From: a virus
IMG/VR virus record: IMGVR_UViG_3300049216_000601
Location: 1 to 35,971 of that record
DNA length: 35,971 bases
Reading direction: 5' to 3' (one strand)
Each line of letters starts with the position of its first letter. The stretch's first letter is position 1. Under the pieces are notes generated by a model that saw only the letters and a list, made by a program, of their open reading frames with translations, had not been told where the DNA came from and ran no database searches. Shown in pieces: positions 4,843 to 35,971 of this stretch. Position numbers and translations under genes: made by a program.

Positions 4843-4851
4843 GCTTTTGAT

Positions 4852-5005
4852 CCCTTCCCCCTCGATGGGGGAAGGGGCAGGGGATGGGGGTGCTCGCACC
4901 GACGCCGACCCAGGTATCCCGGGGCGGCGACGCCTCCTGCGCCCTCCTCGTCAGCGGCTGTGGATGGACCCCCATCCCAACCCTTCCCCCATAAGAGGGG
5001 GAAGG
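4852..5005. repeat. palindromic repeat element between terL and portal
   Basis: A compound inverted repeat. Inner hairpins are CCCTTCCCCC/GGGGGAAGGG (4852-4861 with 4867-4876) and CCTTCCCCC/GGGGGAAGG (4982-4990 with 4997-5005). The segment 4867-4892 also pairs imperfectly with 4968-4990, giving a long outer stem. It starts 9 bp after the terL stop. The style resembles dispersed intergenic palindromes of Caulobacterales chromosomes. It could act as a processing or weak termination signal but has no T-tract. Confidence 0.75.
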
Positions 5006-5036
5006 ACTTATCTCATTGCCTCAGGAGCCGTCTCCC

Positions 5037-6419: not shown

Positions 6420-7495
6420 TGCGGCTGTTTGCAGATCTGTCCAAGGTCGAGGAGCAGGACGACGGCTCCTTGAAGGTGTTTGGCGTCGCCTCCAGCGGCG
6501 CGCGCGACGAGGCCGGCGAGATCGTCTCGCCGGAGGCGATGAAGGCGGCCCTGCCGGGGTATCTGGCCTTTGGCGCCATTCGGGAGATGCACCAGCCGAG
6601 CGCGGCGGGCACGGCGCTGGAGGTCAATGTCGATGAGGACGGCTTCACCCGCCTGACCGCCCACATCGTCGATCCCGTCGCCGTCGCGAAGGTCAAGGCC
6701 GGCGTTTACAAGGGCTTATCCATCGGCGGCAAGGTGCTGCAGCGCGATCCCAAAGACCCCACCACCATCACCGCCCTGAAGCTGATGGAGATCAGCCTGG
6801 TGGATCGCCCCTGCAACCCGGAGGCCTCGATCAATATGTGGAAAGCCGATGGCGGGTTCGATCTCGACGATCTTGAGCTTGGGGCGCCCGATGGGGCGCG
6901 GGCGGCTTTGATCGCGGAGGCCTCCAAGGCGCTTTTCACCACCTTGGCCACCGCTCGCGACGATAAGCCTGTCGCAAAGATCGGCCGCCGCAACTCCGCC
7001 AAGGACCAGGCCGCCATCCAGGCCAGCCACGACCAGATGGTGGGCCTAGGCGCGCGCTGCGATCCCGCCAACTGCGATTTCGACGACGATGAAGACGATG
7101 ATGAGGGCGACGCTGCGCCTGACGCCGGTTCCGACGATGCCGATCCGGCCGAGGACCAGAAGAGCGCAGCCATCGCCGACCTGACCAAGGCCTGGACGCA
7201 GCTTTCCGCCGAGAAGGATGCGCTAAAAGCCACGCTGGACGGCGTCGCGCCGCAGCTTCAGGCGCTCCGCGCCGAGATCGACCTCCTGAAAGCGCAACCC
7301 CTGCCGCCCAAGACCGCCGGCTCGCTCCACGCCGTGGTCGACAAGTCAGCCGACGCGCGCGGCGTTCAGGCCGAGCCGTCGGCCGACCTCAGCCTGGAGG
7401 CGGTGCAAAAGGTTCTGGACGCCCTGCCGCCCCAGGCCCGCGCCGACCTTCTGATGAAGGCCGCCATGGCGCGGCCGATTCCGATACGGGCCTAG
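6419..7495 (+). CDS. HK97-family prohead protease (S78) with extended scaffold-like C-terminus
   Basis: A serine protease that matures the procapsid. The N-terminal ~150 residues are the protease: start MRLFADLSKVEEQDDGSLKVFG, the His58 region IREMHQPSAAG and the Ser101 region YKGLSIGGKV, followed by MEISLVDRPCNPEA, which is diagnostic of this family. After that come an acidic stretch rich in Asp/Glu (about residues 220-250) and a predicted coiled coil, suggesting the C-terminal half also serves as scaffold, as in other HK97-like phages that lack a separate scaffold gene. The C-terminus is LLMKAAMARPIPIRA; a second, diverged copy of this ending occurs at 8501-8602, beyond the toxin cassette. 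Confidence 0.92.
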   Translation: MRLFADLSKVEEQDDGSLKVFGVASSGARDEAGEIVSPEAMKAALPGYLAFGAIREMHQPSAAGTALEVNVDEDGFTRLTAHIVDPVAVAKVKAGVYKGLSIGGKVLQRDPKDPTTITALKLMEISLVDRPCNPEASINMWKADGGFDLDDLELGAPDGARAALIAEASKALFTTLATARDDKPVAKIGRRNSAKDQAAIQASHDQMVGLGARCDPANCDFDDDEDDDEGDAAPDAGSDDADPAEDQKSAAIADLTKAWTQLSAEKDALKATLDGVAPQLQALRAEIDLLKAQPLPPKTAGSLHAVVDKSADARGVQAEPSADLSLEAVQKVLDALPPQARADLLMKAAMARPIPIRA

Positions 7496-7626
7496 CAGAC
7501 GGCCCTTCTCAGTCGCCGCCGCGACCAAGGTCGCAAGCGACGAAGCCACTGTAAACAAGGCCGAATAGCTGAGCGCGCTGCGGGCGTCGCGCCGACGCGC
7601 AAGGCTGCGCGTGAGCGGCGGCGAGC

Positions 7627-8187
7627 GTGTGGCCGCCGCCGGTCCATTTGATGGACGCCATTAACGACTTGCTCATGAAGCGAGCTTCGGCTCTCTATAA
7701 CCTCCGCTACGATCCGAGCCAGTTACAGGTGGAGACGCTGAAATTTCTGCGGAAGACCGTGGATGCGGCTTACGCTGAGGCGGTAGAAGAATTTCGCGCG
7801 AAAGGCCTCAAAGTTGGCCCGTCCTATAATAGAGCTATCGGCAATTTAGTTGATGAAAATGTTCGGGATAAACTTAAACAATTATATAACGAGTACGACA
7901 TATATTATGGTAAAGGTGGATTCATTACCATAAATAACAGAGACTATAACAGGTTGCGAGATCCGCCTACGTATAGGGTGCCCGACGCGCGCGTTGGCAA
8001 TATTGCGTTCGATTGGACAATCGGGTTAAAGACAGCCGCCACGCGTCAAGTAATTGACTTCTTCGAGGCGGATTCGAAACCGGCGGGCGTCGTGATAGTT
8101 GTGCCGACTCAGATTAATAAAGACGGTGCTTATTATATACCCCGTCCACCTACAGCTAAAAAGTATTCCTATGTCTCGCCCATTTAA
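7627..8187 (+). CDS. orphan polymorphic-toxin domain, paralogue of the C-terminus of the protein at 33926-35632
   Basis: A 186-aa protein if started at the GTG (7627); an ATG at 7651 starts right where homology with the second toxin (residues 378-568 of the 33926 gene) begins. The copies share LQVET, FLRKTVD, YAEAV, AIGN, INNRDYN, YRVPD, DWTI, ADSKP, VVIVVP and GAYYIP in the same order. I do not recognise the family. The motif pair YRVPD(A/L)R(V/I)G followed by (F/I)DWTI..K hints at a restriction-endonuclease-like PD...D/K site, but this is speculative. There is no secretion signal or delivery domain and the RBS is weak, so it looks like an orphan toxin tip. The DNA is much more AT-rich than the neighbouring phage genes. 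It ends inside the start of the immunity gene. Confidence 0.75.
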   Translation: MWPPPVHLMDAINDLLMKRASALYNLRYDPSQLQVETLKFLRKTVDAAYAEAVEEFRAKGLKVGPSYNRAIGNLVDENVRDKLKQLYNEYDIYYGKGGFITINNRDYNRLRDPPTYRVPDARVGNIAFDWTIGLKTAATRQVIDFFEADSKPAGVVIVVPTQINKDGAYYIPRPPTAKKYSYVSPI

Positions 8188-8500
8188 GCAGCGGGTACCA
8201 GAAGACATTAACGATGTTATAGAATTTTTGGGCATGATGGTGCTGGACTCGCCAACTTTTATCGATCGAACCGGATATTTTCCTCATACAAATATAGAAA
8301 CCGTATTTACTGCCCTGAATGAAGGCCTATATTTAATTAAATCGGAAATCGGAGATAAAAAATACCTCATGCTAAGACAAATGTCAGATCGAATGCGCGC
8401 CCACTTTGAGGCCGATCGCGAAAAAATTACTGACGAAACAACGAAGGGATGCGACATTATTTTTGAGATGAAGGACATACTGATTGCGAGCCTCACGTAA
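8171..8500 (+). CDS. probable immunity protein of the orphan toxin cassette
   Basis: A 109-aa protein whose ATG lies 17 bp inside the end of the toxin gene, so the two are translationally coupled. It is clearly homologous to the 111-aa protein at 35636-35971. Shared blocks are SPTF-D-TGYFP, NI, LNEGL, the run MSDRMRAHFEAD and a KG..II.EM ending. Each homologue sits directly downstream of a copy of the same toxin domain, which is the classic arrangement for an immunity gene. It is small, soluble-looking and without a signal peptide. The family is not recognised. AT-rich codon use matches that of the toxin, so the pair moved as one cassette. Confidence 0.8.
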   Translation: MSRPFKQRVPEDINDVIEFLGMMVLDSPTFIDRTGYFPHTNIETVFTALNEGLYLIKSEIGDKKYLMLRQMSDRMRAHFEADREKITDETTKGCDIIFEMKDILIASLT

Positions 8501-8602
8501 CCGCCGAGCTTGGAAGAGCCCATCGATGACCAAGCTCGATTGAGCCTGCGCCGCCACATTGTGAAGGGCGCCATGGCCCAGGCGATCCTGATTAGACCTT
8601 AG
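8501..8602 (+). pseudogene. displaced remnant of a prohead-protease 3' end
   Basis: Immediately after the immunity stop, a 33-codon open stretch ends in IVKGAMAQAILIRP and a TAG. It resembles the intact protease C-terminus (LMKAAMARPIPIRA, TAG): 7 of 14 residues are identical, and 31 of the last 45 bases by hand alignment without gaps. A shared QAR lies slightly upstream in each. There is no start codon of its own. It looks like the old or donor 3' end of a protease gene left behind when the toxin-immunity cassette was introduced. The similarity is short, so chance is not fully excluded. Confidence 0.55.
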
Positions 8603-8622
8603 CTCGCTCCCGCTGGCGGGCC

Positions 8623-8739
8623 GTGCGTGCTTCGAGACGCGAGCAAGCTCGCGCCTCGAGCCATGATGCAGTTATCGGAATAGCAATGTGTTTCGTCATG
8701 CTGAGGAGCCCCTTTTAGGGGGCGTCCCGAAGCACGCAC
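8623..8739. repeat. inverted repeat, arms ~46 bp
   Basis: The left arm (8623-8668, starting GTGCGTGCTTCGAGACGC) and right arm (8694-8739, ending GCGTCCCGAAGCACGCAC) are imperfect reverse complements, strongest over the outer ~18 bp, separated by 25 bp. Each arm also carries its own small hairpin (GCGAGCAAGCTCGC; CCCCTTTTAGGGG). The 'TCATGCTGAGGAG...GAAGCACGCAC' wording resembles a dispersed intergenic repeat of Caulobacterales genomes. It sits between the protease remnant and the capsid gene. Confidence 0.75.
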
Positions 8740-8834
8740 AGCCCGCGTTCTAACCCCCATCCACCTTCCCACACCCACTCGCGCCCGCTTGCGGCCGCGT
8801 GGGTTTCTCCATGCCTGAAAGGCCTATACCCCCA

Positions 8835-10801: not shown

Positions 10802-11378
10802 TCTCTGCCAACTCGCCGACGTTCAGGCCTGGCTACCGAACGCCCCGACCGGCTCGCCTGGGACCGACCTGATCTCGCAACTGATAACGGCGGCGTCCCG
10901 CGCTATCTGCGGCTACTGCGCTCGGGGACAGTTCCTGGCTCAGAGCTACACCGATACCTATGACGGCGCGGGCAAGACCTGGATGCTGTTGCGTCAGTGG
11001 CCGGTGCTGTCGGTCAGCGCCATCGCCCTGACCCAGTGCGGCGTTACAACAACCGTCGCCGATCCGACCGCGTTTCAGCTCGAAGCCCCGATCCCGGCCG
11101 GCGGCGCCCAGCGCCTGACCTTGATCGCGCCGCACCTGTATTTCGCGCGAGGTCGGGGCAATGTGCAGATCACCTACGAGGCGGGGTATGAAAGCGTGCC
11201 GCCCGATATCGCCCAGGCCTGTATCGAGGCGGTTGGCGAGGCCTATCAGCGACGCAACCGGATCGGCCAGACGTCGGTCTCCAGCCAGGGCCAGACCACA
11301 GTGTCATTCAGCCAGGCCGACCTCAATGCGGCGGCCAAGGCGATGCTGGAGCCCTATATCCGCCGCCTACCGCTGTAG
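10788..11378 (+). CDS. head-tail connector (gp6-like adaptor)
   Basis: A 196-aa protein with the features of gp6-like adaptors that bind under the portal. The N-terminal helix is DLCQLADVQAWLPN, followed by LISQLITAASRAICGYCARGQFLAQSYTDTYDG, a beta section with WPVLSVSAIALTQCG (the 'RPVlSV' type motif common in this family), and VQITYEAGYESVPPDIAQACIEAVGEAYQRRNRIG near the C-terminus, which is typical. The gene ends 12 bp inside the 3' end of a convergent minus-strand gene, so the insertion of that gene abutted this one closely. Confidence 0.85.
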   Translation: MAVGDLCQLADVQAWLPNAPTGSPGTDLISQLITAASRAICGYCARGQFLAQSYTDTYDGAGKTWMLLRQWPVLSVSAIALTQCGVTTTVADPTAFQLEAPIPAGGAQRLTLIAPHLYFARGRGNVQITYEAGYESVPPDIAQACIEAVGEAYQRRNRIGQTSVSSQGQTTVSFSQADLNAAAKAMLEPYIRRLPL

Positions 11379-13133
11379 CCCAAACCGTACTCGGAACCCG
11401 TCTATCGCCGCGCCGAGGCCGGGTCCGCCGCCGCGGGCTCGGGGCGTCGGCAAGGTGGGGCAGAGCGGGGTCTCGGCGGCCAGGCGCCGCCAGGCCGACC
11501 ACGCCTGATCGTATCGCGCCACCGCCTCGCGAATGCGCTCGCTCCGATAAGCGCCGTTTTTCGCGCCGTCGGCGGCGAGCAAGCAGGCGGTCCAGCCTGC
11601 GGCGATGACCGAATATTTGCACTGGCCATAGCGAGCCGACACCCGCGCGAAGGCTTGCCTGGACGCGCTGGCGAATTGGATGTGATCCATCTTTTCGACG
11701 ATATCGCCCCACATCGCCAGCGCTTGGCCCTTCTCGTCGATCGCCGCGTCGACCAGGCCCTTATCGACGAAATCGCTCAAGTCCGGTGTGGAGAGGGTGT
11801 CGTCGCGCGCCCACCACGGGTCTATCGCAGCGCCCAGATTGCTGACTTGCCCGCGCAAAACAGCCGCGGCTGAGGTTAGGCTTATCTCGCGCAGGATCTG
11901 GGTGTCGCTATCGGACAGCTTCAGGATTTCGCGGCCATATTGCGCGAACAGCGACGCTTCGTCTCGAGAGGTGTCCCGGGCGAAACCGCTGAGCACATAG
12001 GCGTTCAGATCGCACCACAGCTCGTCCTGGATATAGGGCCCATCCCATCCCCCGCCGCGCGACCAGGTCCATAGGCCGCAAAACTGCGGACTGGAGGTCA
12101 GGTCGCGCAGGCCGCGGGACGCGCCCGCCGGCATAAGCCAATTGAATTCTTCCCAGCCCTCAATGACGCCTCGGGCGACATAATAGGGGTGGGCGCCCTT
12201 GCCGTAAGCTTCCATCTGGCACTGCGCCTCGACCACCTGGCGGTGCCGGCCCATTCCCAGGGTCGGGTTGAACGGCGTGAGGCGCAGAAAATCGCCCCTC
12301 GGGTGCTTGATGGAAAAGCAGAGTTTGGGGTGGGGCGCGATCCGGTCGGTGACGCCGAGGTAATAGCGCGGATTGTTATGGAAATTGTCGCCGAAGTCCC
12401 AGGTGCGGTACATCACGGTTCTATCCGAACCGACGCAGACGACCTCACGCAGCAAGGTCAGTAGGGCGCGATGGCTCTCTTCCCCATGGGTGATGGCCGT
12501 CCCCGCCTGGATCTGGCTTTCTGCGTGAAGCGCTGTCGCCGAGGGGACGCGCGCGGCGTGATAGGGCAGGTCTTGGAGATAAATCTCGCCGGTGCGCACC
12601 ACCAAGCCGTCGAGATCGGGGAAGGTCTGCAGGATTTCGAGCGTAAAGGCTCGCAGCACCGCCTGGGTCGCCGGCAGACGCACATCGATCCGGCCGGCCG
12701 GATCGACCAGCTTGGCCCCGTGCTTAGCCAAGAGGCGTTTGGGCAGGACCACATATTGCACCCAGGCGTAGACCGATAGCCCGGCCCGCTTGGCGTCTGC
12801 GATCCGCGCGCCGATTTCGGACTTCAGCTTGGCCGCCAGCCTGGCTTCATCGCTGTCTTTGGGAATGAGGCCTGGATCGTAGGCGCCAAAGGTGGCGACG
12901 CCTTCGATCGCCTGTTCGACGACCACCGCGCCGTAGCCCCGCGCCCTCAGAAACGCCGGGTCCAGATAGGCGGTGTGCGGCGGCGCGACGCCGGGATTGG
13001 CGTGGACCATATCCATCAGGGCCAGCGTGCGGCGGGGCGCCGACGCCTGTGCGGCCGGCGCTTGCGCCAAAGCCGCCGCCCCGCCGAGCCCCGCGAACAG
13101 CGTCGCCTTGAATGCACCCCGCCGGTCGATCAT
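11367..13133 (-). CDS. Tat-exported glycoside hydrolase-like protein (cargo)
   Basis: A 588-aa protein from the ATG at 13133, chosen because AGGGCGAGG precedes it and because it starts a Tat-type signal (MIDRRGAFKATLFAGLGGAAALAQ, cleavage after AQA). The mature part looks like a TIM-barrel polysaccharide-acting protein: LDPAFLRARGYGAVVVEQA, a central AKRAGLSVYAWVQYVV strand, PDLDGLVVRTGEIY, RTVMYRTWDFGDNF, YYVARGVIEGWEEFNW, and GLWTWSRGGGWDGPYIQDE. Those patterns recall alpha-glucuronidase-like or related glycosidases, but I cannot name a family. Acidic residues in RTGEIY and EGWEEFNW could be catalytic. It is antisense to the phage genes, between the connector and the gp10-like gene, and so appears to be host-type cargo. 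Confidence 0.7.
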   Translation of the reverse strand: MIDRRGAFKATLFAGLGGAAALAQAPAAQASAPRRTLALMDMVHANPGVAPPHTAYLDPAFLRARGYGAVVVEQAIEGVATFGAYDPGLIPKDSDEARLAAKLKSEIGARIADAKRAGLSVYAWVQYVVLPKRLLAKHGAKLVDPAGRIDVRLPATQAVLRAFTLEILQTFPDLDGLVVRTGEIYLQDLPYHAARVPSATALHAESQIQAGTAITHGEESHRALLTLLREVVCVGSDRTVMYRTWDFGDNFHNNPRYYLGVTDRIAPHPKLCFSIKHPRGDFLRLTPFNPTLGMGRHRQVVEAQCQMEAYGKGAHPYYVARGVIEGWEEFNWLMPAGASRGLRDLTSSPQFCGLWTWSRGGGWDGPYIQDELWCDLNAYVLSGFARDTSRDEASLFAQYGREILKLSDSDTQILREISLTSAAAVLRGQVSNLGAAIDPWWARDDTLSTPDLSDFVDKGLVDAAIDEKGQALAMWGDIVEKMDHIQFASASRQAFARVSARYGQCKYSVIAAGWTACLLAADGAKNGAYRSERIREAVARYDQAWSAWRRLAAETPLCPTLPTPRARGGGPGLGAAIDGFRVRFGLQR

Positions 13134-13188
13134 GCCGCGCCTCGCCCTGAACCGGTCCAAATCATCGTACGGAGGTCTTAAGGCGCCG

Positions 13189-13683
13189 ATGACCGCTTTC
13201 AAGCTCGCCGGCGCCGACGAGGTGGTCCAGCGCTTAAATCGCCTGGGCGCCGACGTTCAGGCCTGCCTCGTCGCCACCAGCCAGACCCTGGCCGCCAGCC
13301 TCGCGGACCACGTTCAGCAGGACAAGCTCGCCGGCCAGGTGCTGAACCGGCTGTCGGGCGACCTGGCCGCGTCCATCGCGGCGACGGTCGATGTCGGCGA
13401 CGGGACTGTGACCGCCCAGGTCTTTTCCGCCAATCCGCCGCCCTACGCCGCCATCCTAGAGTTCGGCGGCGTGATCCCGGCCCACGACGTCCGGCCCGTC
13501 TCCGCGGAGGCTCTGTCGTTCATGCTCGACGGTCGGCGCGTGTTCGCCAAGGTCGCGCACATCCCCGACGTGACTCTCCCGGCCCATTCCTACCTGCGCG
13601 CCTCGCTCCAGGACATGGCGGCCGAGATCGCGACCGAGCTGCAGCAGGCGGTCGCCCGCGCCCTGAAAGGCCAAACCTCATGA
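13189..13683 (+). CDS. HK97 gp10-like head-tail/tail-completion protein
   Basis: A 164-aa protein started at 13189 (MTAFKLAGADEVVQRLNRLG) after GGAGG at 13171-13175. The longer open frame upstream is antisense to the cargo gene and is not believed. The pattern is that of the HK97 gp10 family: an N-terminal helix LNRLGADVQACLVATSQTLAASLADHVQQDK, a beta region with VFSANPPPYAAILEFGG, and the C-terminal AHSYLRASLQDMAAEIATELQQAVARAL ('P-x-R.F/Lr.al.e') ending. It overlaps the next gene by 4 bp (ATGA), so the pair is coupled. Its 5' end is head-to-head with the cargo gene, 55 bp apart. Confidence 0.85.
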   Translation: MTAFKLAGADEVVQRLNRLGADVQACLVATSQTLAASLADHVQQDKLAGQVLNRLSGDLAASIAATVDVGDGTVTAQVFSANPPPYAAILEFGGVIPAHDVRPVSAEALSFMLDGRRVFAKVAHIPDVTLPAHSYLRASLQDMAAEIATELQQAVARALKGQTS

Positions 13684-15466: not shown

Positions 15467-15502
15467 CGCTTTTTGCTGTTCAATAGCGCCGATCCATTTA
15501 TC

Positions 15503-15602
15503 CCGCTCATCCCGGCGAAGGCCGGGACCCAGATCAAAGAGCGCTATCGCCTAAACGTTGGCTCCTTATGATCTGGATCCCGGCCTTCGCCGGGATGAGC
15601 GG
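15503..15602. repeat. near-perfect 34-bp inverted repeat (palindromic element)
   Basis: The arms 15503-15536 and 15569-15602 are reverse complements with one mismatch in 34 bases; their core is CATCCCGGCGAAGGCCGGGA. Weaker complementarity extends outward (CCATTT.. against ..GGAATGG). The arms also contain the internal palindrome CCCGGCGAAGGCCGGG. This wording is a very common dispersed intergenic palindrome of alphaproteobacterial chromosomes. It sits between the tail chaperone pair and the tape measure gene. Confidence 0.88.
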
Positions 15603-15673
15603 ATGGAATGGGTCAAGTTATGCGCCCATTGCTCTAGGCGGGCTCTCCAACACCAAAATACCGGGAGGCGCTC

Positions 15674-16660
15674 ATGTCGGACGATTCAGAACTCACCGTC
15701 AGCTTCCTCGCCGACACCTCCGACCTGGAGGCGGGCGCCGAGGCGGCCGCAGGGTTCGTAGACAGCTTCAACACGCACGTCTCAAACACCGCCTCGCTGG
15801 CCGATCAGCTCGCCTCGATTTCTGCGATGACCACGGCCTTCTATGTTCATATGGCCGCCACTGCGGCGGCGGCGAACCAGAAGGTAACCGCGGGCGCCAA
15901 AAACGCCGCCGATGATTACAGCCAGGTTTGGAAGAAAACCGTCACCAGCGTCGTCGATACCTTCGGCAACGGCCTGTTGGCCATGGCGCGCGGGACCGAG
16001 AGTTTTCACGCCGTCGGGCTGAAGGTGGCGGAATCGGTCGAGAACGTCTTCGTCAAGGCGATTGAACGCACCGTGGTCTCCCACGTGCTGGGAGAAACCG
16101 CCAAGTCGGCGGCGACCACAGCCGGGCAGGCGACCCAGACGGCGGCCACCTCGGCCGGCGTCGCACAGCGCACAGCGGCCGAACAAGCGGGGCAGTCGGA
16201 GAGCCTGGCTATGGACCTGACCGCGACCTTGAAGAAGATCACCAACGCGGCGGCTGCGGCTGCGGCCGCGGCTTTCCACGCCTTCGCCGATGTGCCGCTG
16301 GTTGGGCCGGCGCTGGGCGCGGCGGCGGCCGCGGCGACCTTTGTGGCGGTGGAGAGCTTCGGCGCGCTCGCCAGCGCTTCGGGCGGCTATGACATCGGCG
16401 ATGAGAACCCGTTGGTCCAGGCGCACGCGCGCGAAATGATCCTGCCGGCGTCTATCGCCGAGCCGTTGCGGGGGATGATCGCGGCGGGAGGCGCGAGCGG
16501 GTTAAGCGGTTCGGCCGGCCTCGGCGCTGCGGGCGCGGGCGGCGATACCCACAACTGGAACATCCAGGCGCTCGACAGCCGGAGTTTTGCGCGGACTTTG
16601 AACACCTCGGCTGGGCGAACGGCGGTGCGCGGGGCTGCGGCGGCGCATTTGAGGGGGTAG
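15674..16660 (+). CDS. tail tape measure protein (short)
   Basis: A 328-aa protein following GGGAGGCGC. It begins with a helical coil-like region, has a long Ala-rich helical centre (GETAKSAATTAGQATQTAAT through KKITNAAAAAAAAAF) with a small hydrophobic stretch VPLVGPALGAAAAAATFVAVESFG, and ends with the typical tape-measure tail signature GGYDIGDENPLVQAHAREMILPASIAEPLRGMI followed by a Gly/Ser/Ala-rich part. By the usual rule of about 0.15 nm per residue, this would specify a tail of roughly 50 nm, short for a siphovirus. It is followed by the non-phage insertion, but its own stop codon looks natural. Confidence 0.82.
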   Translation: MSDDSELTVSFLADTSDLEAGAEAAAGFVDSFNTHVSNTASLADQLASISAMTTAFYVHMAATAAAANQKVTAGAKNAADDYSQVWKKTVTSVVDTFGNGLLAMARGTESFHAVGLKVAESVENVFVKAIERTVVSHVLGETAKSAATTAGQATQTAATSAGVAQRTAAEQAGQSESLAMDLTATLKKITNAAAAAAAAAFHAFADVPLVGPALGAAAAAATFVAVESFGALASASGGYDIGDENPLVQAHAREMILPASIAEPLRGMIAAGGASGLSGSAGLGAAGAGGDTHNWNIQALDSRSFARTLNTSAGRTAVRGAAAAHLRG

Positions 16661-17048
16661 GGGAAACTTGAACGCCGAGCCGTGCCATCGTGCTCGGGCG
16701 GGTCAAGGGACGTTTCACTCTTCGCCCTTGACCCACCCTGTGCGCGACGGCTGACGGATGGGGTCGGGACGCCGAGCGTCCCTCATCCCGTTCGACCCCT
16801 CCAGAGGGGCCGAACACCGAGCTGTAGACTTTAGCAGCGCCCAATCCATTGATGGCGCTGAGGCTGGACCCTATCAAAATCTGAAAGCAACAGCCCTGTG
16901 TTCGACGCGCCGCAGGCCGTCGAACTTCATTACGGGACGCCCCGCGCCCAGACCCCTCCGGTCAGCCGCCGCGCGCAGGGCGGGTCAAGGGCTTCAGAGC
17001 GAAGCGTCCCTTGACGCGCCCGAGCACGGTGGCCCGAGCACGCCTAAA
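16661..17048. other. gene-free stretch filled by a long inverted-repeat element
   Basis: This 388-bp gap between the tape measure stop and the convergent M20 peptidase stop is nearly all taken up by the inverted repeat at 16685-17032. No believable gene was seen here; the open frames are shadows of the repeat. It may serve as a transcription barrier between the converging genes. Confidence 0.7.
16685..17032. repeat. ~350-bp MITE-like inverted repeat
   Basis: The outer arms (16685-16740, starting CCATCGTGCTCGGGCGGGTC, and 16976-17032, ending GCCCGAGCACGGTGG) are imperfect reverse complements of about 56 bp. Complementarity continues inward: 16741-16763 pairs with 16953-16975 (GACGGCTGACGGA against TCCGGTCAGCCGCCG). 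So most of the element can fold into one long hairpin. No transposase is present. It may be a non-autonomous element or a large chromosomal palindrome. No clear flanking target duplication was found by eye. Confidence 0.75.
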
Positions 17049-18467
17049 TCAATCCGACAACGCCGGGATCAAGCTCACGTAATACGTAATCGCCGGCTGC
17101 AAATTCGCGATCGGCGCGCGCTCGTTCAGGCCGTGGCTGAAATTGTCCGACGGCTTCATGAACATCGGCCCGGCGCCGTAGCTCGCCACGCCGTGATAGC
17201 GGAACCACATGCTGTCGCTGGCGCCCGACGCCATGGCGGGGAAGATCGGTACGCCGGGATAGGCCTTCCCAAGAGACTTTTCGACGGCGGCGATGAAATC
17301 TGGCCGCATCGGCGAGGCGGCGGTGGCGACTGAGCCTTCGGTCACATCCTTGAACGTCACGGCGGGCTCGGCGGCGACGCGCTGGAGCTCGGCCATGATG
17401 GCGGCCCGGGTGTGGCCGGGGAAGATGCGGCAGTTGATATTGGCCGAGGCGTGCTGGGGCAGGGCGTTCAGGGCATGGCCGCCGCCGATCATGGTGACAA
17501 CGCAGGTGGTGCCGATCTCGCCGACCACGGCCGGATCGGCTGTGATGGTCGCAATCGCTTGGGCGTCGGTCGGGTCTGCGACGAAGGCCTTCAGGGCCGC
17601 GCCGATCTTGGGGTCTTCATACTTGGCCGCCTGGCTGAGAGAGGCGCGCGTCAGGTCGCTCAGCTCGGGTTTGAACTGATAGTCGTGGATGCGCAGGAGC
17701 GCCGCAGCCAACTGATCGATGGCGTTGATCTTGCGCGGCTCGGACGAGTGGCCGCCAGGGTTGGAGACGCTGAGCTCGAAGTCCGCATAGGTCTTTTCCG
17801 CGCCCTGCCAGGTGAAGAACAGCGGCTTATTCGTCGTTTCGTCGAGCACACCGCCGCCGCCGTCGATGTTGAGCACGAGGTCTGCGTTGCTCAGCTTGTC
17901 GGCGATGATGGCGCTGGTCTTCATCGTCGTTTCTTCGTCGCCGGAGAACTCGATGATGATGTCGCGGCGGGGCTTATAGCCTTCGCGCTTCAGCTCGATC
18001 AGGGCGGCGATGGCGAGCGTTCCGTCGAACTTCATATCGCTGGCGCCGCGGCCGAACAGGTAGCCGTTTTCGACCACGGGGGTGAAGGGATCGCGCACCC
18101 AGTCCGACGGCTTGGCCTCGACCACGTCCATGTGGCCGGAGATCACCAGCGGCTTCAGCGAAGGATCGCTGCCGGGCCAGCGGGCGATCAGATAGGCGGT
18201 GTCGTCTACCGGCGTGATGGTGATGTCGTTGGCTGAAAACCCGCCCGCCACGAGCGCCGCCTTGTAAAGCTCCGCCACCTGGGGCGTCTGGTTGCCGGGG
18301 CCTTGCACAGACCGGAGCGCAATTGCTTTCTTGGCCAGATCGAGCGCCTGGGCCTGGGCCTCTTGGTAGGTCTGGCCTGCAGCTTGCACCACGCCGATTG
18401 AGGCGGCCAGTACGATGCTGCTGAGCAGCAGCGCGGCGGTCGCCGAACGGGTCTTCGCGGTCTTCAT
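17049..18467 (-). CDS. exported M20-family metallopeptidase (cargo)
   Basis: A 472-aa zinc-dependent peptidase/deacylase with an N-terminal signal peptide (MKTAKTRSATAALLLSSIVLAASIGVVQA). Family motifs are clear: VISGHMDVVEAKPSDW (first zinc His and catalytic Asp), GRGASDMKFDG (bridging Asp), IIEFSGDEET (catalytic/ligand Glu pair), a dimerisation-domain motif SNPGGHSSEPRKINAI, and a C-terminal ASGASDSMWFRYHGVASYGAGPMFM with NFSHGLNE carrying the last zinc His. All key residues are present, so it should be active in the periplasm. It is on the minus strand between the tape measure and DUF2460 genes, where phages normally have nothing, and so is an insertion of host-type DNA. Confidence 0.92.
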   Translation of the reverse strand: MKTAKTRSATAALLLSSIVLAASIGVVQAAGQTYQEAQAQALDLAKKAIALRSVQGPGNQTPQVAELYKAALVAGGFSANDITITPVDDTAYLIARWPGSDPSLKPLVISGHMDVVEAKPSDWVRDPFTPVVENGYLFGRGASDMKFDGTLAIAALIELKREGYKPRRDIIIEFSGDEETTMKTSAIIADKLSNADLVLNIDGGGGVLDETTNKPLFFTWQGAEKTYADFELSVSNPGGHSSEPRKINAIDQLAAALLRIHDYQFKPELSDLTRASLSQAAKYEDPKIGAALKAFVADPTDAQAIATITADPAVVGEIGTTCVVTMIGGGHALNALPQHASANINCRIFPGHTRAAIMAELQRVAAEPAVTFKDVTEGSVATAASPMRPDFIAAVEKSLGKAYPGVPIFPAMASGASDSMWFRYHGVASYGAGPMFMKPSDNFSHGLNERAPIANLQPAITYYVSLIPALSD

Positions 18468-18640
18468 ACGGTTTCACGTCCCTAAGAGCTTTATGCGTCG
18501 GTATCGCCTTTCCGCGAGGCTGCAAAGCGAAAGGCCGCGATTGGAAGAGGGCTTCACGCTGCTGTCGCGGTCTTGCGCTCGAGCTCGGAAAGGTTGACGA
18601 AGATTGGGGCGACTCCGGTCGGCTGGGGGAGAATCGGATC

Positions 18641-18850
18641 ATGCACCGGTTTGGGCTTGCCATCGCCGCTTTGGCCGCTTTGACGACCGCCTCGGCAGCG
18701 TGCGCCGCGCCGGTGTTGATGATCTCCATCGATGGTCTGCGCCCCGCCGACGTGCTGGAGGCGAAGGCTCGGGGGGTCGAGGTTCCTACACTCACGGCCA
18801 AGATCTTAGGCGTCGCCTTACCCTCGGCGCAGGCGGCGCCGCTGTTCTAG
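18641..18850 (+). pseudogene. truncated alkaline phosphatase/nucleotide pyrophosphatase-type phosphodiesterase, N-terminus only
   Basis: A 69-codon frame with a good start (GGGGGAGA upstream). It encodes a signal peptide (MHRFGLAIAALAALTTASAA, then CAAP) followed by VLMISIDGLRPADVLEAKARG and VEVPTL. That is the N-terminus of the type I phosphodiesterase/nucleotide pyrophosphatase family, with the metal-binding Asp of the SIDGLRP motif. Full proteins of this family run to about 400 residues; here similarity stops after VPTLTA and the frame closes shortly after. No remainder is seen before the DUF2460 gene at 19019. It lies divergent to the M20 gene and appears to be the broken end of the imported host segment. 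Confidence 0.75.
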
Positions 18851-19018
18851 GGCGCTCCGGACCGGCCTGAATGCGCTTGAGGCTGTCCCCCGAATCTCAT
18901 AGCGTTTCAGCCAGCGGTTGATTTTGCGTTCGAAGGCTTTTGCGCTTCGCGTCGCCGCTTAATCCCATTTTTCGATCCATCCGGCCCTCGCGCCGGGTTT
19001 TGCGTGTGGAGAGAAGTC

Positions 19019-19618
19019 ATGACCGTCTTTCCCACGCTGACCGGTATGTCGTTCACGGTGAACAAAGGCCCGTCGTGGAACACGCTCACCAAGCAGGCGG
19101 CTTCGGGCCGCCAAGTGCGCGTCAGCCTGCAATCCTCGCCGATCTGGAAATTCAAGCTGGCGTTTGAGTATCTGCGGGACCGGGCCGCGGCGACGTCGGA
19201 TGTCCAGAACCTCTGGGCCTTCTTCAACTCGGTCAACGGGCAGTTCAACCAGTTCTATTTCCTCGACCCCTATGAGAACGCCGTGCTGGATCACGGCATC
19301 GCGGTGGGCGACGGCGCTACCACATCGTTTCAGCTCACCCGCACGGTGGGGGCGGGGACCGGCTATCCCTGGATCGAGCCCGTCTATGGCGTCTCCGGCG
19401 CGCCCACCGTGTACGTCAATGGCGTCCCCACCGCGGCGACGCTCGGCGCTTACGGCGTGATCTCTTTCGCCACGCCCCCGGCCAACGGCGCGGCAATCTC
19501 CTGGTCGGGGACCTTCATGTTCCTCTGCCACTTCACCCAGGACGACCTGCAGCCGAGCCAGATGGTCAAGGGGCTTTGGAGCCTGGATGGGCTCGAGTTC
19601 GAAAGCCTCCTCCCATGA
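19019..19618 (+). CDS. DUF2460 family distal tail protein (GTA gp12-like)
   Basis: A 199-aa protein. ATG 19019 is preferred because GGAGAG lies just upstream; GTG 19004 is in frame. The family pattern is visible: FPTLTGMSFTVNKGPSWNTLTKQAASGRQVRVSL, then PIWKFKLAFEYLRD, LWAFFNSVNGQFNQFYFLDPYENAV, a beta insertion VYVNGVPTAATLGAYGVISFATPPANGAAISWSG and the ending MVKGLWSLDGLEFESLLP. In gene transfer agents and related phages this protein forms the distal tail ring between tube and hub. It starts the tail-tip block after the host-type insertion. Confidence 0.92.
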   Translation: MTVFPTLTGMSFTVNKGPSWNTLTKQAASGRQVRVSLQSSPIWKFKLAFEYLRDRAAATSDVQNLWAFFNSVNGQFNQFYFLDPYENAVLDHGIAVGDGATTSFQLTRTVGAGTGYPWIEPVYGVSGAPTVYVNGVPTAATLGAYGVISFATPPANGAAISWSGTFMFLCHFTQDDLQPSQMVKGLWSLDGLEFESLLP

Positions 19619-19658
19619 ACTCAAGCAGCGCGAAGCGCGGTAGCTCAGGAAAAATTTC

Positions 19659-20588
19659 ATGAAGGCCGCCACCACCACCCTCATAAACTTCCTAGAGAAC
19701 GCCACCACCTATGTGCGGGCCGATCTCTACACCTTCACCCTGAACGGCGGCGCGGTGCTGCGCTACACCTCGGCCAACGCCCCGGTCACCACCACGATCG
19801 CTGTCAACGGCGTCGTCCAGGGACCGTACACCTGGAACGTCGGGCCGCCGATCAGCGACGAGGGCGTGCAGTCCTCGCGCGGGGTCAACGCGGCGTCTGT
19901 CGATATCACCATCAACGGCGGTACGGGCGTGTGGACCGTCAACGGCGAAGACATCCTGGACTTCATCGACGGCTTCGGCCTGGACGGCGCCAGCGTCCGC
20001 ATCGACCGCGCCTGGGCGCCCGACTGGCCGACGATGTTCGGCTCTGGACCCGTAGGCACCCACTGCCGCTTCTCCGGCCTCTTCACCGAAGCCAAGGAAC
20101 TGGGCGAGACCCAGGCCGTGGTCACGGTGCAGGACCCCCGCTCGGTACTGCAAACCCCATACCCGGCCGAGGTGTATTCCACCTCCTGCCTCAATGTGTT
20201 CGGCGACGCCAATTGCAGCGTGAACGTGGCGGCCCTGACCCAGAACGGAACCGTCGTCAACGCCTCCAGCCAACTCGCCTTCAACACCAACCTGACCGTG
20301 GCGGATAACTATTTCACCCTGGGCGTGGTCACCTTCACCTCCGGCGAGAACGAAGGGATCAGCCGCTCGATCAAGTTCAACGCCGCGGCTGGCAACGGCG
20401 TGATGCTGACCGCGCCCTTGCCCGCGGAACCGGCGATTGGCGACACCTTCACCATCTCGCCGGGCTGCTCCCTGGCGCTCTCCAGCACCAGTCCCAACGG
20501 CTGTCAGCAATGGCAACCCTCGACCTGGGCGGAGCGGTTCCGCGGCCAGCCCTTCGTGCCGCCGCCGACGACGGGGCTGCCGACGTGA
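19659..20588 (+). CDS. DUF2163 family baseplate hub protein (GTA gp13-like)
   Basis: A 309-aa protein that begins MKAATTTLINFLENATTYVRADLYTF and shows the order of the family: an N-terminal beta domain with VVQGPYTWNVGPPISDEGVQSSRGVNAASVDITI, a central RFSGLFTEAKELGETQAVVTVQDPRSVL, and a C-terminal BR0599-type domain with Cys-containing motifs (STSCLNVFGDANCSVNV and SPGCSLALSSTSPNGCQQW). The clustered cysteines are a hallmark of the hub family and may bind a metal or iron-sulfur cluster. It ends with PTTGLPT and overlaps the next gene by 4 bp (GTGA). Confidence 0.92.
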   Translation: MKAATTTLINFLENATTYVRADLYTFTLNGGAVLRYTSANAPVTTTIAVNGVVQGPYTWNVGPPISDEGVQSSRGVNAASVDITINGGTGVWTVNGEDILDFIDGFGLDGASVRIDRAWAPDWPTMFGSGPVGTHCRFSGLFTEAKELGETQAVVTVQDPRSVLQTPYPAEVYSTSCLNVFGDANCSVNVAALTQNGTVVNASSQLAFNTNLTVADNYFTLGVVTFTSGENEGISRSIKFNAAAGNGVMLTAPLPAEPAIGDTFTISPGCSLALSSTSPNGCQQWQPSTWAERFRGQPFVPPPTTGLPT

Positions 20589-21214
20589 TCCGCCCTGATG
20601 TCGTCGCGGAGCTTTCCGCGCATCTGCGCGGCCCCTCCACCGCTTTCAGCGGTCCCCCTCCCCATGCTTCGCATAGGGAGGATGAAGACGCTGCGGTTTT
20701 CATCTCCCCTATCGAAGATGGGGGAGTACCGCGGAGCGGGGAGGGAGCCGCGCGGCAGCGCGGAACCGTCTCTATGAGCGAGGCGGAGCAGCGCCAAGCC
20801 GTCGCCGCCGAAGCGCGCACCTGGCTCGGCACGCCCTACGCTCACGCCCAGCGGCTCAAGGGCGTCGGCGCCGATTGCGCCGGCGTGCCGCTGGAGGTCT
20901 ACGCTGCGGTGGGCCTGATCCCGCCCACGGACGTCGGCCCCTACAGCAACCAGTGGCATCTCCACCGTTCGCGCGAGCGGTATCTGGAGTGGGTGGAGAA
21001 GTTCGGCCGCGAGATTGCGCGGGATCAAGCCGGGCAGGGGGATTTCCTGGTCTGGCGGTTTGGGCGCACCTATTCCCATGGGGGCATCCTCGTCGATGAC
21101 CGCCACGTGGTGCACGCCTACGCCCGTGTCGGCCGGGTGATCCTCGACAACAGCATGACCCAGGCCGAGCTGAAAAACAGCCCGGTCAAGGCTTTTACCT
21201 TTTGGGGCGCATAG
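20585..21214 (+). CDS. NlpC/P60-family tail peptidase (GTA gp14-like), with an in-frame repeat insertion
   Basis: A cell-wall peptidase at the tail tip that would cut peptidoglycan during entry. GTG 20585 overlaps the hub stop (GTGA) and starts MIRPDVVAE, the expected start of the family. The homology is then interrupted by about 60 residues of low-complexity sequence encoded by a palindromic repeat. It resumes at VAAEARTWLGTPYAHAQRLKGVGADCAG, with the catalytic Cys in GADCAG. GDFLVWRFGRTYSHGGILVDDRHVVHAY contains the catalytic His region (SHGG). An ATG at 20774 offers an alternative start giving a domain without the insertion. The catalytic residues are intact, so a shorter product could still function. 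Confidence 0.88.
   Translation: MIRPDVVAELSAHLRGPSTAFSGPPPHASHREDEDAAVFISPIEDGGVPRSGEGAARQRGTVSMSEAEQRQAVAAEARTWLGTPYAHAQRLKGVGADCAGVPLEVYAAVGLIPPTDVGPYSNQWHLHRSRERYLEWVEKFGREIARDQAGQGDFLVWRFGRTYSHGGILVDDRHVVHAYARVGRVILDNSMTQAELKNSPVKAFTFWGA
20612..20755. repeat. palindromic repeat inserted in the NlpC/P60 gene
   Basis: Outer arms 20626-20663 and 20720-20753 are imperfect reverse complements (GCGCGGCCCCTCC.. against ..GGAGGGAGCCGCGC). Internal hairpins include CCTCCCCATGCTTCGCATAG and ATCTCCCCTATCGAAGATGG. The style matches dispersed Caulobacterales intergenic palindromes, but here it lies within an open frame and the frame is maintained through it. Confidence 0.7.
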
Positions 21215-33290: not shown

Positions 33291-33929
33291 ATGCCCGTCC
33301 TGGCCGCCGCCTGGACGGCGCTTTGCGCCGCCCTGAAGTCCGTCAAGATCAGCGCCACCGCGCTGCTCTACGCCGCGCTCGTCCTATCGGGCGTCGTCGG
33401 CGCTGAAGCGTTCGAGCGCACCTTTCGCGTCAACGTCCTCTTCATCCACATCGAAGGCCTCGGCGCCCAGCTCACCGACCTCAAGGCCAAAGACGTCGCC
33501 GCGCTGAAGGCGGCGCAGGCGCATGTCGCCACGGTCCAGGCCGCGCAGACCCAAGCCACCGCTAGCGTCATGGCCGCCTACACGCCGGCCGTCGCCGCCA
33601 TCGCCACAAACTCGAAAACCCTGAGCCAAGAGGTCCCGACCTATGTCACGCCCAAAGACGATGCTGGCTGCCTTATCAATAACGGCGCTGTCAGCCTGCT
33701 CGACGCCGCCGCCGGCGGTCTGCCCGCCGTTCCCGACCCCGCCGTCGGCGCTGATGACGCCCCCTCGGGCGTTGCACTCTCTACCCTCGTCACCACCGAC
33801 GTCGGCAACGACGCCGCCGCCCTCGAAAACGCCGACCGGCTAGCCGCGCTCCAGGCCTGGGTGCGCGCTCAGCAGGCCGCCCAAGACACGACCGGGACGA
33901 CGCCGAACGCGCCGGCCGCCAAGCCATGA
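33291..33929 (+). CDS. Rz-like inner-membrane spanin candidate
   Basis: A 212-aa protein; ATG 33291 after AAGGAGACC is preferred over the upstream in-frame ATG at 33180. It has an N-terminal membrane anchor (TALLYAALVLSGVVGAEAF), a periplasmic helical coiled coil (LTDLKAKDVAALKAAQAHVAT, VQAAQTQATASVMAAY) and a C-terminal domain with VPTYVTPKDDAGCLINNGAVSLLDAA. That 'YVTp..D..C.i..G.v.l.daA' is a frequent pattern in spanin-like proteins following phage lysozymes. It would help rupture the outer membrane. It overlaps the toxin gene by 4 bp (ATGA). Confidence 0.75.
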   Translation: MPVLAAAWTALCAALKSVKISATALLYAALVLSGVVGAEAFERTFRVNVLFIHIEGLGAQLTDLKAKDVAALKAAQAHVATVQAAQTQATASVMAAYTPAVAAIATNSKTLSQEVPTYVTPKDDAGCLINNGAVSLLDAAAGGLPAVPDPAVGADDAPSGVALSTLVTTDVGNDAAALENADRLAALQAWVRAQQAAQDTTGTTPNAPAAKP

Positions 33930-35632
33930 ACTTTGCGGTCGACTACATCTACCGCCTCGCGCCCCGAGGCGGCGCAGGCTTGGCGTGCGACGCGGCCGGC
34001 GTGGCGCTGGGTGCAACGGACCTCGCCCGCGTGCACCTGGAGGGCGCCCGGCGCCGCTGCGAGGTGCGGCCGCCGGGCGAGATCGGCCGGGTGCTGAAAG
34101 CCGCCTACGGGCCCCAGCCCGACGCGGTGGTCCAGCGCCTCCACCGCGGCTTGAACCGGACCGCCAAATGGCTCGAAGCCGGCGACCTCTGCCACGCCGG
34201 CGTCGAAGCCGTCATGCTGGGCTTCCCCGACCTGACCCCCACCGCCATGGCCAAGCTCGCCGAGCTTGCCGACCTCGAAAAGCGCGGCGCGGCTTGGGAG
34301 GACGAGCCGCGGGTTCCGGCGGGGCAGGCCGGCGGTGGGCAGTGGACGACGGGCGGGGGTGGCGGGGGTGGGGCGGCGGCGAGCGCCAAGCCCGTCCAGA
34401 CGGTCACGTCTCTGCCAACGTCTAAGCCAATGCCCAGGCCCGAGCCGCGCACCCAGACCCTGGACGAGCACGCCTATGGCCCTGCCGCGGCCTTGCCCCC
34501 CTCGAGCCGCCACAGCCAACAGCCTCAGGCCACGCTCGACGACGGGGTCTTGCACTTCACCGAAGGCCAAGGGCCGGGCGGACAGCCGGCGATCTGGGAC
34601 GACGGGGTCTACCGCCCCGCCTCGAACCGGCCACGCCTGATCCCGGCCTCAGGGCCGCTAGAATTGGCGTTGGATCGGCTAAAGGCGGAGGCGGCGGCTG
34701 CAAGGGCGGAGGCCGAAGCGCCGGAGGCAAGGGCGGCGGCAGCAGCCGAAGCCGAAGCCGAAGCGGCAGAGGCGCGGGCGGCGGCGCAACAACGTTCGTC
34801 CCGGTTGCCGGGAGAGGTCAAAACTGTTGAGCAGTTATTTACGAAACCTAAAAATTATCGGGGCGGTATGATCCCCATGGGTCGTCCCGGCCGCTTTGGA
34901 CCGGCGGCCGCAGCCGAGACCTTGAGTGCGGAGCAATCGTGGGACATTTACAAACAGTTGCTCGATGAGACCAAGGCTATTGATCCTCATTACGCCAATG
35001 CTCCGGCGCATCCGAAAAGCGCGTTCATCCACCTGCCCCTAGCCGAACGCCAAGACATGATCGACGACGCGCTTTTGGATCGTGCGGCGGCCGACTATAA
35101 GATCCGTGGCAATCCAAAACTTCTCCAAGTTGAGACCGTGAGCTTCTTGCGCAAGACGGTGGATCATTATTATGCCGAGGCGGTGAAGAAGTTCGACGCC
35201 AAGCGCTTTGAGTCTCCGCTGGCGCGCGGGCAAGCGATTGGCAATGATGTGGACGAGCAGACACGGCGGGATCTCAAACGCCTATACACTCAGAAGGGCA
35301 TCCCTTATGGTCGAGGCCAAGGGATCGCCATCAACAACCGCGACTATAACACAAGTCAGCCAGTGAAGTCGCCGTCTGGAAGGCCACCCTACCGGGTGCC
35401 CGATTTACGGATTGGTGAAGCGCCGAAGGATGACGATCCGATTGGGAAAGTCAAGATTAACAACATAACTATCGATTGGACGATTAGTATGAAACAGCCG
35501 AACGACTCTCAAATTCGGGACTTCATCCACGCAGATTCTAAACCCAAGGCCGTAGTGATAGTTGTTCCTTCGCCAATCTATCCGCCGGGCGCCTATTACA
35601 TACCCAGTCCGGCAGCTTTGAAAGGAAATTGA
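33926..35632 (+). CDS. phage-borne modular polymorphic toxin
   Basis: A 568-aa protein. Residues 1-125 form a helical domain (VRPPGEIGRVLKAAYGPQPD, KWLEAGDLCHAGVEAVMLG, LTPTAMAKLAELADLEKRG). Residues 127-141 carry the junction motif EPRVPAGQAGGGQWT, then a Gly-rich linker, a Pro-rich section (145-235) with two repeats of DDGV (LDDGVLHF; WDDGVYRP), and an Ala/Glu-rich coiled coil (250-290). The last ~190 residues, from 378 (base 35057), are the toxin domain paralogous to that at 7651-8187. Constant leader, linker and variable tip followed by a small immunity gene is the polymorphic toxin plan. The gene is coupled to the spanin-like gene (ATGA), so it should be expressed late with lysis. No signal peptide is seen; the delivery route is unknown. 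Confidence 0.78.
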   Translation: MNFAVDYIYRLAPRGGAGLACDAAGVALGATDLARVHLEGARRRCEVRPPGEIGRVLKAAYGPQPDAVVQRLHRGLNRTAKWLEAGDLCHAGVEAVMLGFPDLTPTAMAKLAELADLEKRGAAWEDEPRVPAGQAGGGQWTTGGGGGGGAAASAKPVQTVTSLPTSKPMPRPEPRTQTLDEHAYGPAAALPPSSRHSQQPQATLDDGVLHFTEGQGPGGQPAIWDDGVYRPASNRPRLIPASGPLELALDRLKAEAAAARAEAEAPEARAAAAAEAEAEAAEARAAAQQRSSRLPGEVKTVEQLFTKPKNYRGGMIPMGRPGRFGPAAAAETLSAEQSWDIYKQLLDETKAIDPHYANAPAHPKSAFIHLPLAERQDMIDDALLDRAAADYKIRGNPKLLQVETVSFLRKTVDHYYAEAVKKFDAKRFESPLARGQAIGNDVDEQTRRDLKRLYTQKGIPYGRGQGIAINNRDYNTSQPVKSPSGRPPYRVPDLRIGEAPKDDDPIGKVKINNITIDWTISMKQPNDSQIRDFIHADSKPKAVVIVVPSPIYPPGAYYIPSPAALKGN

Positions 35633-35635
35633 CTG

Positions 35636-35971
35636 ATGCGCGGCCCATATCCAATTTTAATTCCCCAAAATCGGAGCGAGGTTATCGAGATGTTGGGCGG
35701 AATGAGGCTCCTTTCGCCGACATTTCGAGATATAACGGGCTATTTTCCCGGCAGGAATATCGATAATACCTTTTACGAGCTGAATGAAGGCTTGCGGTTG
35801 TTGCAGCCAAAGCTCGGCGATGACCTTTACTTCAAGCTTCGAGATATGTCGGATCGGATGCGGGCGCATTTTGAGGCCGATCCAGAAGATAAGATGGATG
35901 ACGCACTCAAGGGGCGCGCCATCATCGGTGAGATGATTGATCTACTGAAGCAGAGCCGCCGCAAACGCTGA
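35636..35971 (+). CDS. probable immunity protein of the modular toxin
   Basis: A 111-aa small soluble protein starting 3 bp after the toxin stop. It is homologous to the protein at 8171-8500 (shared SPTF-D-TGYFP, NI, LNEGL, MSDRMRAHFEAD, KG..II.EM). Both stand right behind the same toxin domain. It has the size and charge usual for polymorphic-toxin immunity proteins. The family is not recognised. The window ends at its stop codon. Local composition is more AT-rich than in the upstream genes. Confidence 0.8.
   Translation: MRGPYPILIPQNRSEVIEMLGGMRLLSPTFRDITGYFPGRNIDNTFYELNEGLRLLQPKLGDDLYFKLRDMSDRMRAHFEADPEDKMDDALKGRAIIGEMIDLLKQSRRKR

Follow-up and report, generated by a model that had tools for sequence, protein, structure and literature searches.

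The window, by which is meant the whole stretch of DNA that was analysed, is the virus record IMGVR_UViG_3300049216_000601 (35,971 bases). Its genes run in the order terminase, portal, protease, capsid, connectors, tail tube and short tape measure, and continue with DUF2460, DUF2163, NlpC/P60, a 1,067-aa tail protein, and fibre-like and lysis genes, several of these names being a reading from gene order and sequence. The short tape-measure-like tail protein (328 aa, 15674–16660, plus strand; PHROG 2854 ‘tail length tape measure protein’, 1.3e-11) forms the left border of a slot, and the DUF2460 tail protein (19019–19618, plus strand; PF09343, 1.8e-33 on the ORF from 19004) forms the right border. 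The slot contains a large hairpin, a minus-strand gene for an M20-family metallopeptidase and the start of a phosphodiesterase gene. Capsid relatives are numerous in the viral collection (354 confirmed, the best 80 of 354 kept), the named phages give zero DNA matches to window 15600–20600, and an Rfam scan of the window gave none. A terminase relative (71%) is found in the genome of Caulobacter sp. S45 (locus L010), and from this together with the host-type repeat described below we infer a Caulobacteraceae host. The window probably belongs to a temperate-type siphovirus of this family.

The borders within the slot were set by alignment to a closely related record, IMGVR_UViG_3300047462_000635 (hereafter the sibling; G001, loci L083, L085, L093 and L169), which has the same gene order at a DNA identity of ~80–92% (~85% taken together, 84% in the tape-measure gene). 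The alignment divides the slot into a hairpin stretch (16661–17008), a shared peptidase block (17009–18532) and a variable stretch (18533–18875). The sibling carries the same M20 peptidase in the same slot (L085 5878–7399, 85.5% identical to window 17009–18532). The hairpin stretch is absent from it, only 10 bases separating the two flanking matches, and in place of the variable stretch it has a minus-strand gene for a 111-aa glyoxalase-like (VOC) protein (L085 7470–7802; PF00903 glyoxalase-superfamily domain, 5.1e-10). Of 20 related loci, 18 have the tape-measure gene directly next to DUF2460, and the slot is therefore normally empty in the wider phage family; the two that deviate are the sibling (L093) and L118, where a 371-aa ORF on the plus strand occupies this position. 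This count skips the remaining sibling views (L083, L085 and L169), covers loci with a recognised tape-measure gene (thus excluding, for example, L104, L105, L123, L128, L131, L145 and L149) and includes two bacterial genome contigs (L283 and L284). The peptidase is known at this junction from two records, the window and the sibling.

The M20 peptidase and the phosphodiesterase remnant

The peptidase gene (17049–18467, minus strand) encodes 472 amino acids and is intact, as the first-pass annotation had it, with matches to Peptidase_M20 (3.2e-27) and M20_dimer (1.4e-15) in Pfam and a full-length match to the NCBIfam family NF006596 (577.7 bits, cut-off 349). The protein is predicted to be exported, its N-terminus resembling a signal peptide when judged by eye. 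Sixteen Asp/Glu/His positions are identical in 102/102 aligned sequences, including H112, D114, D144, E178, E179, D202 and H445, several of the sixteen being metal ligands in the M20 family, and the presumed catalytic residues are intact. The protein thus resembles NF006596 (PRK09133, a ‘hypothetical protein’ subfamily) in being full-length with invariant catalytic-type residues, and differs in being carried by a phage. A literature search found no report of a phage-borne relative, which does not prove that there is none.

Comparison of the window with the sibling gives a dN of 0.060 and a dS of 0.561 for the peptidase (dN/dS ~0.11, from one sequence pair), and the dS is close to those of the tape measure (0.506), DUF2163 (0.529) and capsid (0.486) genes. 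The peptidase has therefore evolved with the phage genes and under constraint, and the low ratio indicates purifying selection. Its presence at the same place in both records makes it older than their split. A quick tree with 102 rows groups the two phage proteins (support 100); their next neighbours are an uncultured sphingomonad bin and a Sphingomonas-like isolate, at a support of 91 that lies below the 95 mark. Relatives at 61–78% identity occur in Sphingomonadaceae, Acetobacteraceae, Caulobacteraceae and a few other records, and the flanking genes differ among the five loci inspected. Among named phages, relatives were found in 11 records, all less than 60% identical, the best named-phage matches being at 25–31%.

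Upstream of the peptidase, in the variable stretch, a plus-strand frame of 69 aa (18641–18850) begins back to back with it, the two starts being 173 bp apart. Codons 1 to ~53 (18641–18800) align with type I phosphodiesterases, and the final 16 codons are unrelated and unaligned. Among 13 aligned relatives 11 are open frames of 449–595 aa, the other two (176 and 372 aa) running into a contig end, and the single relative scanned matches PF01663 at 2.1e-44; the 69-aa frame itself matches no Pfam family. It was matched in 18/249 Caulobacteraceae-family genomes over residues ~4–63, mostly ending near 55. As the aligned relatives extend into a conserved region missing here, the window holds the start of the gene without its catalytic domain. 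That a phosphodiesterase had been cut off within the gene was thus rightly noticed, but the remnant comprises ~53 rather than ~60 codons, and since the alignment stops near codon 53 the break lies at ~18800 and not at ~18825. This scrap and the glyoxalase-like gene of the sibling were each seen in a single record.

The hairpin and its repeat family

The ~350-bp inverted repeat reported beside the peptidase is real and spans 356 nt (16681–17036). It consists of two inverted copies of one palindromic unit of ~150 nt, the left at 16681–16829 (plus strand, 130.3 bits to model R1) and the right at 16886–17036 (minus strand, 146.3 bits), both copies being part of the training set of the model. The pair sits exactly where the tape-measure and peptidase genes converge, between their 3' ends. 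Among inverted repeats of the window with arms up to 400 bp apart it heads the list, and the DNA fold of 16670–17050 has a predicted energy of −138.6 kcal/mol (z −14.25, 0/100 shuffles as low). The tip of the right arm (17009–17036) is kept in the sibling, where 26 of 31 bases match over 17009–17039 and 0/1000 shuffles of the tip reach that score, although the covariance model does not recognise this remnant. From the tip it follows that the repeat pair is older than the split and that the sibling lost the rest of it. This repeat also follows the tape-measure gene in a third phage contig, L092 (95.9% identity over 243 bp), which comprises the left unit and ends inside the loop.

A covariance model built from nine copies found the repeat in four Caulobacteraceae genomes, with nine matches in G002, eight in G022, four in G035 and three in G031 (the weakest of these three at E 0.007), and gave a weak match in G011 (E 0.001) and none in 21 other records searched, the sibling among them. 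These copy numbers are lower bounds, since of the first-look candidates, thousands per genome, 113 were scored, and 7 of the 24 copies had served to build the model. An earlier DNA search matched 17/299 genomes of the family, strongly only in the same four. Ten of the 24 copies form five inverted pairs, three of which, all in G002, are oriented as in the window. Among 17 chromosomal sites, eight lie between convergent genes, four between tandem genes and none between divergent genes, with three overlapping a called ORF and two at an edge; the ORF caller behind this count is crude, a looser one making L277 tandem and L281 divergent, and the counts are not independent because some sites in two genomes look orthologous. 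In an alignment of 25 copies that was fitted to the structure, 14 base pairs show paired changes, against 6.5 ± 1.5 in shuffles (0/500). The position of the repeat and its kept base pairing suggest some selection.

Among the phage loci scanned (E ≤0.1) the model matches nothing beyond the window and L092. An exact 26-mer of the unit is absent from the viral collection, a result of little weight because records close to the window may have been omitted, and a literature search found no report of this repeat, which likewise does not prove its absence. The unit resembles REP/BIME and REPIN elements in being short, palindromic and extragenic and in occurring singly or as inverted pairs. Dispersed copies and inverted pairs, as expected of REP/BIME elements, were found, and the extragenic location applies with the proviso that 3 of the 17 sites overlap a called ORF. 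It differs from both types in its length of ~150 nt and its few copies (3–9 found per genome), and from REPINs in that a RAYT-type transposase was not found in the four genomes that carry it, which are drafts. CIR elements of Caulobacter are ~110 bp long and contain GANTC (PMC2229807). The window repeat is like them an alphaproteobacterial intergenic palindromic repeat with several stem-loops, and unlike them it has no GANTC, none occurring in window 16661–17048.

Origin and possible role of the slot contents

That host-type DNA lies inside the phage, as first proposed, is supported by these results. They do not support its import in one event, because the parts of the slot vary one by one: in the sibling the peptidase is kept, the hairpin is gone except for its tip, and a glyoxalase-like gene replaces the scrap, so that the three parts change independently. 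The reading that we consider reasonably likely is a phage cargo (moron) slot with a host repeat between converging genes, in which peptidase, repeat and scrap were gained or lost in separate steps. Other cargo of this phage family is likewise polymorphic at gene junctions. Import of one chromosomal block comprising the repeat pair, the peptidase, the phosphodiesterase start and perhaps the glyoxalase-like gene, followed by differing losses, would agree with the repeat tip in the sibling, which places both repeat and peptidase before the split, and with the 173-bp spacing of the two starts, which resembles a natural divergent pair. The expected neighbours were nevertheless not found in hosts: searches with 11 full-length phosphodiesterases gave no hit in the 100 peptidase loci that were fetched, of which 93 are distinct (80 with flanks as long as 8 kb, contig permitting, and 20 with ~1.5 kb), no glyoxalase-like relative was present in the 100 loci either, and no repeat was detected at E ≤0.1 in the 21 peptidase loci that were scanned with the model. 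The nearest kin of the peptidase are moreover sphingomonad-like (the fork with support 91, below 95), whereas the repeat family was found in four Caulobacteraceae genomes, both donors being unsampled. A single block is therefore regarded as unlikely. A joint host origin of peptidase and phosphodiesterase was rejected: the 100 peptidase loci did not show it, and in the family search, among the matches listed, those on the same contig lie tens of kilobases apart (for example ~30 kb in G048 and G025, ~80 kb in G171). It is possible that hairpin and peptidase arrived jointly, or that a larger ancestral insert lost different parts in each lineage.

The hairpin might instead be a transposable element (MITE or REPIN type) that inserted into the phage while the latter was a resident of the host chromosome, with no connection to the cargo and no function. 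The dispersal of the unit in host-type genomes, as single copies and inverted pairs, and the absence of matches beyond the window and L092 from the scanned phage loci (E ≤0.1) are what such an element would leave, but a RAYT-type Y1_Tnp domain (PF01797) was found in 0/4 carrier genomes, and the position and kept base pairing of the repeat hint at selection. Drafts may miss such a gene; the PF01797 control was positive in 6 of 14 genomes, including Caulobacter vibrioides. We hold a functionless mobile element of this kind to be somewhat improbable. Assemblies do break at palindromes, and the L092 contig ends inside this very hairpin, so fusion of chromosomal to phage DNA at the palindrome also has to be weighed. 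The sibling, a separate record with the peptidase in the same place and flanked by tail genes, largely refutes an artefact; L092 also confirms the junction from tape measure to repeat, and the dS of the peptidase matches that of neighbouring phage genes. This explanation is very improbable.

With a cargo slot filled in separate steps as the preferred reading, the junction displays stepwise turnover (gain, partial loss and replacement) at one point of the tail module in two close phages, and the shared repeat links phage to hosts. Phage morons, or lysogenic conversion genes, are a familiar concept, and the slot peptidase resembles them in being an intact host-type gene between structural genes, on the opposite strand, absent in relatives and under purifying selection. 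A moron also has its own promoter and terminator and is expressed in the lysogen; a scan of 16500–19100 for sigma-70-type promoters found none (0, against 0.3 by chance), and expression of the peptidase in the lysogen is a supposition. The peptidase would be made in the lysogen and exported, where it could give the host a peptide-scavenging or similar trait.

The hairpin pair, for its part, would stop transcripts of the late operon and of the cargo gene from running into each other, whether as read-through or as antisense, and the repeat pair probably insulates the converging genes. No classical terminator with a T-run was found at it, the region containing 2 terminator-like sites against 2.2 ± 1.4 in shuffles, and any termination at the hairpin would therefore be of another kind. 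Insulation by the pair would help to explain why antisense cargo is tolerated in a late phage operon. Alternatively, the unit may sit at the junction merely as a mobile repeat without a role. Whether host chromosomal repeat pairs act more generally as portable two-way insulators in this phage family, so that adjacent antisense cargo is tolerated in the late operon, is a speculative and rather doubtful extension; if true, host repeats would open slots in the phage structural module.

Other cargo and repeats in the window

Several further regions of the window are variable or cargo-like. A 611-aa gene (11367–13202, minus strand) has no Pfam, NCBIfam or PHROG match, and its predicted structure is unusable (mean pLDDT 42.7). 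It is present in the window, L092, L095 and L096, a short junction being found instead in L090, L091, L093, L094, L097 and L098. Two related gene pairs lie at 7627–8500 and 33926–35971, in which the C-terminal part of a 568-aa protein shares 48% identity with a 186-aa protein and the downstream small genes are 53% identical; their appearance is that of polymorphic toxin and immunity pairs. Window 7495–8768 is absent from the sibling. Adjoining weak matches to Tox-REase-5 and Imm52, both under the Pfam cut-offs, occur at 833–2071, and a cyclophilin-type peptidyl-prolyl isomerase (PF00160) is encoded at 2173–2826, upstream of the terminase genes, with matches in L089, L093 and L095. Further long inverted repeats of other sequence are located near or between genes at 4851–5006, 8616–8746 and 15491–15614, where the window departs from the sibling or from other relatives. 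Finally, the related phage contigs L125 (10031–11101) and L131 (14487–15389) carry the same cargo-like protein (72% identical) at two different tail-module junctions.
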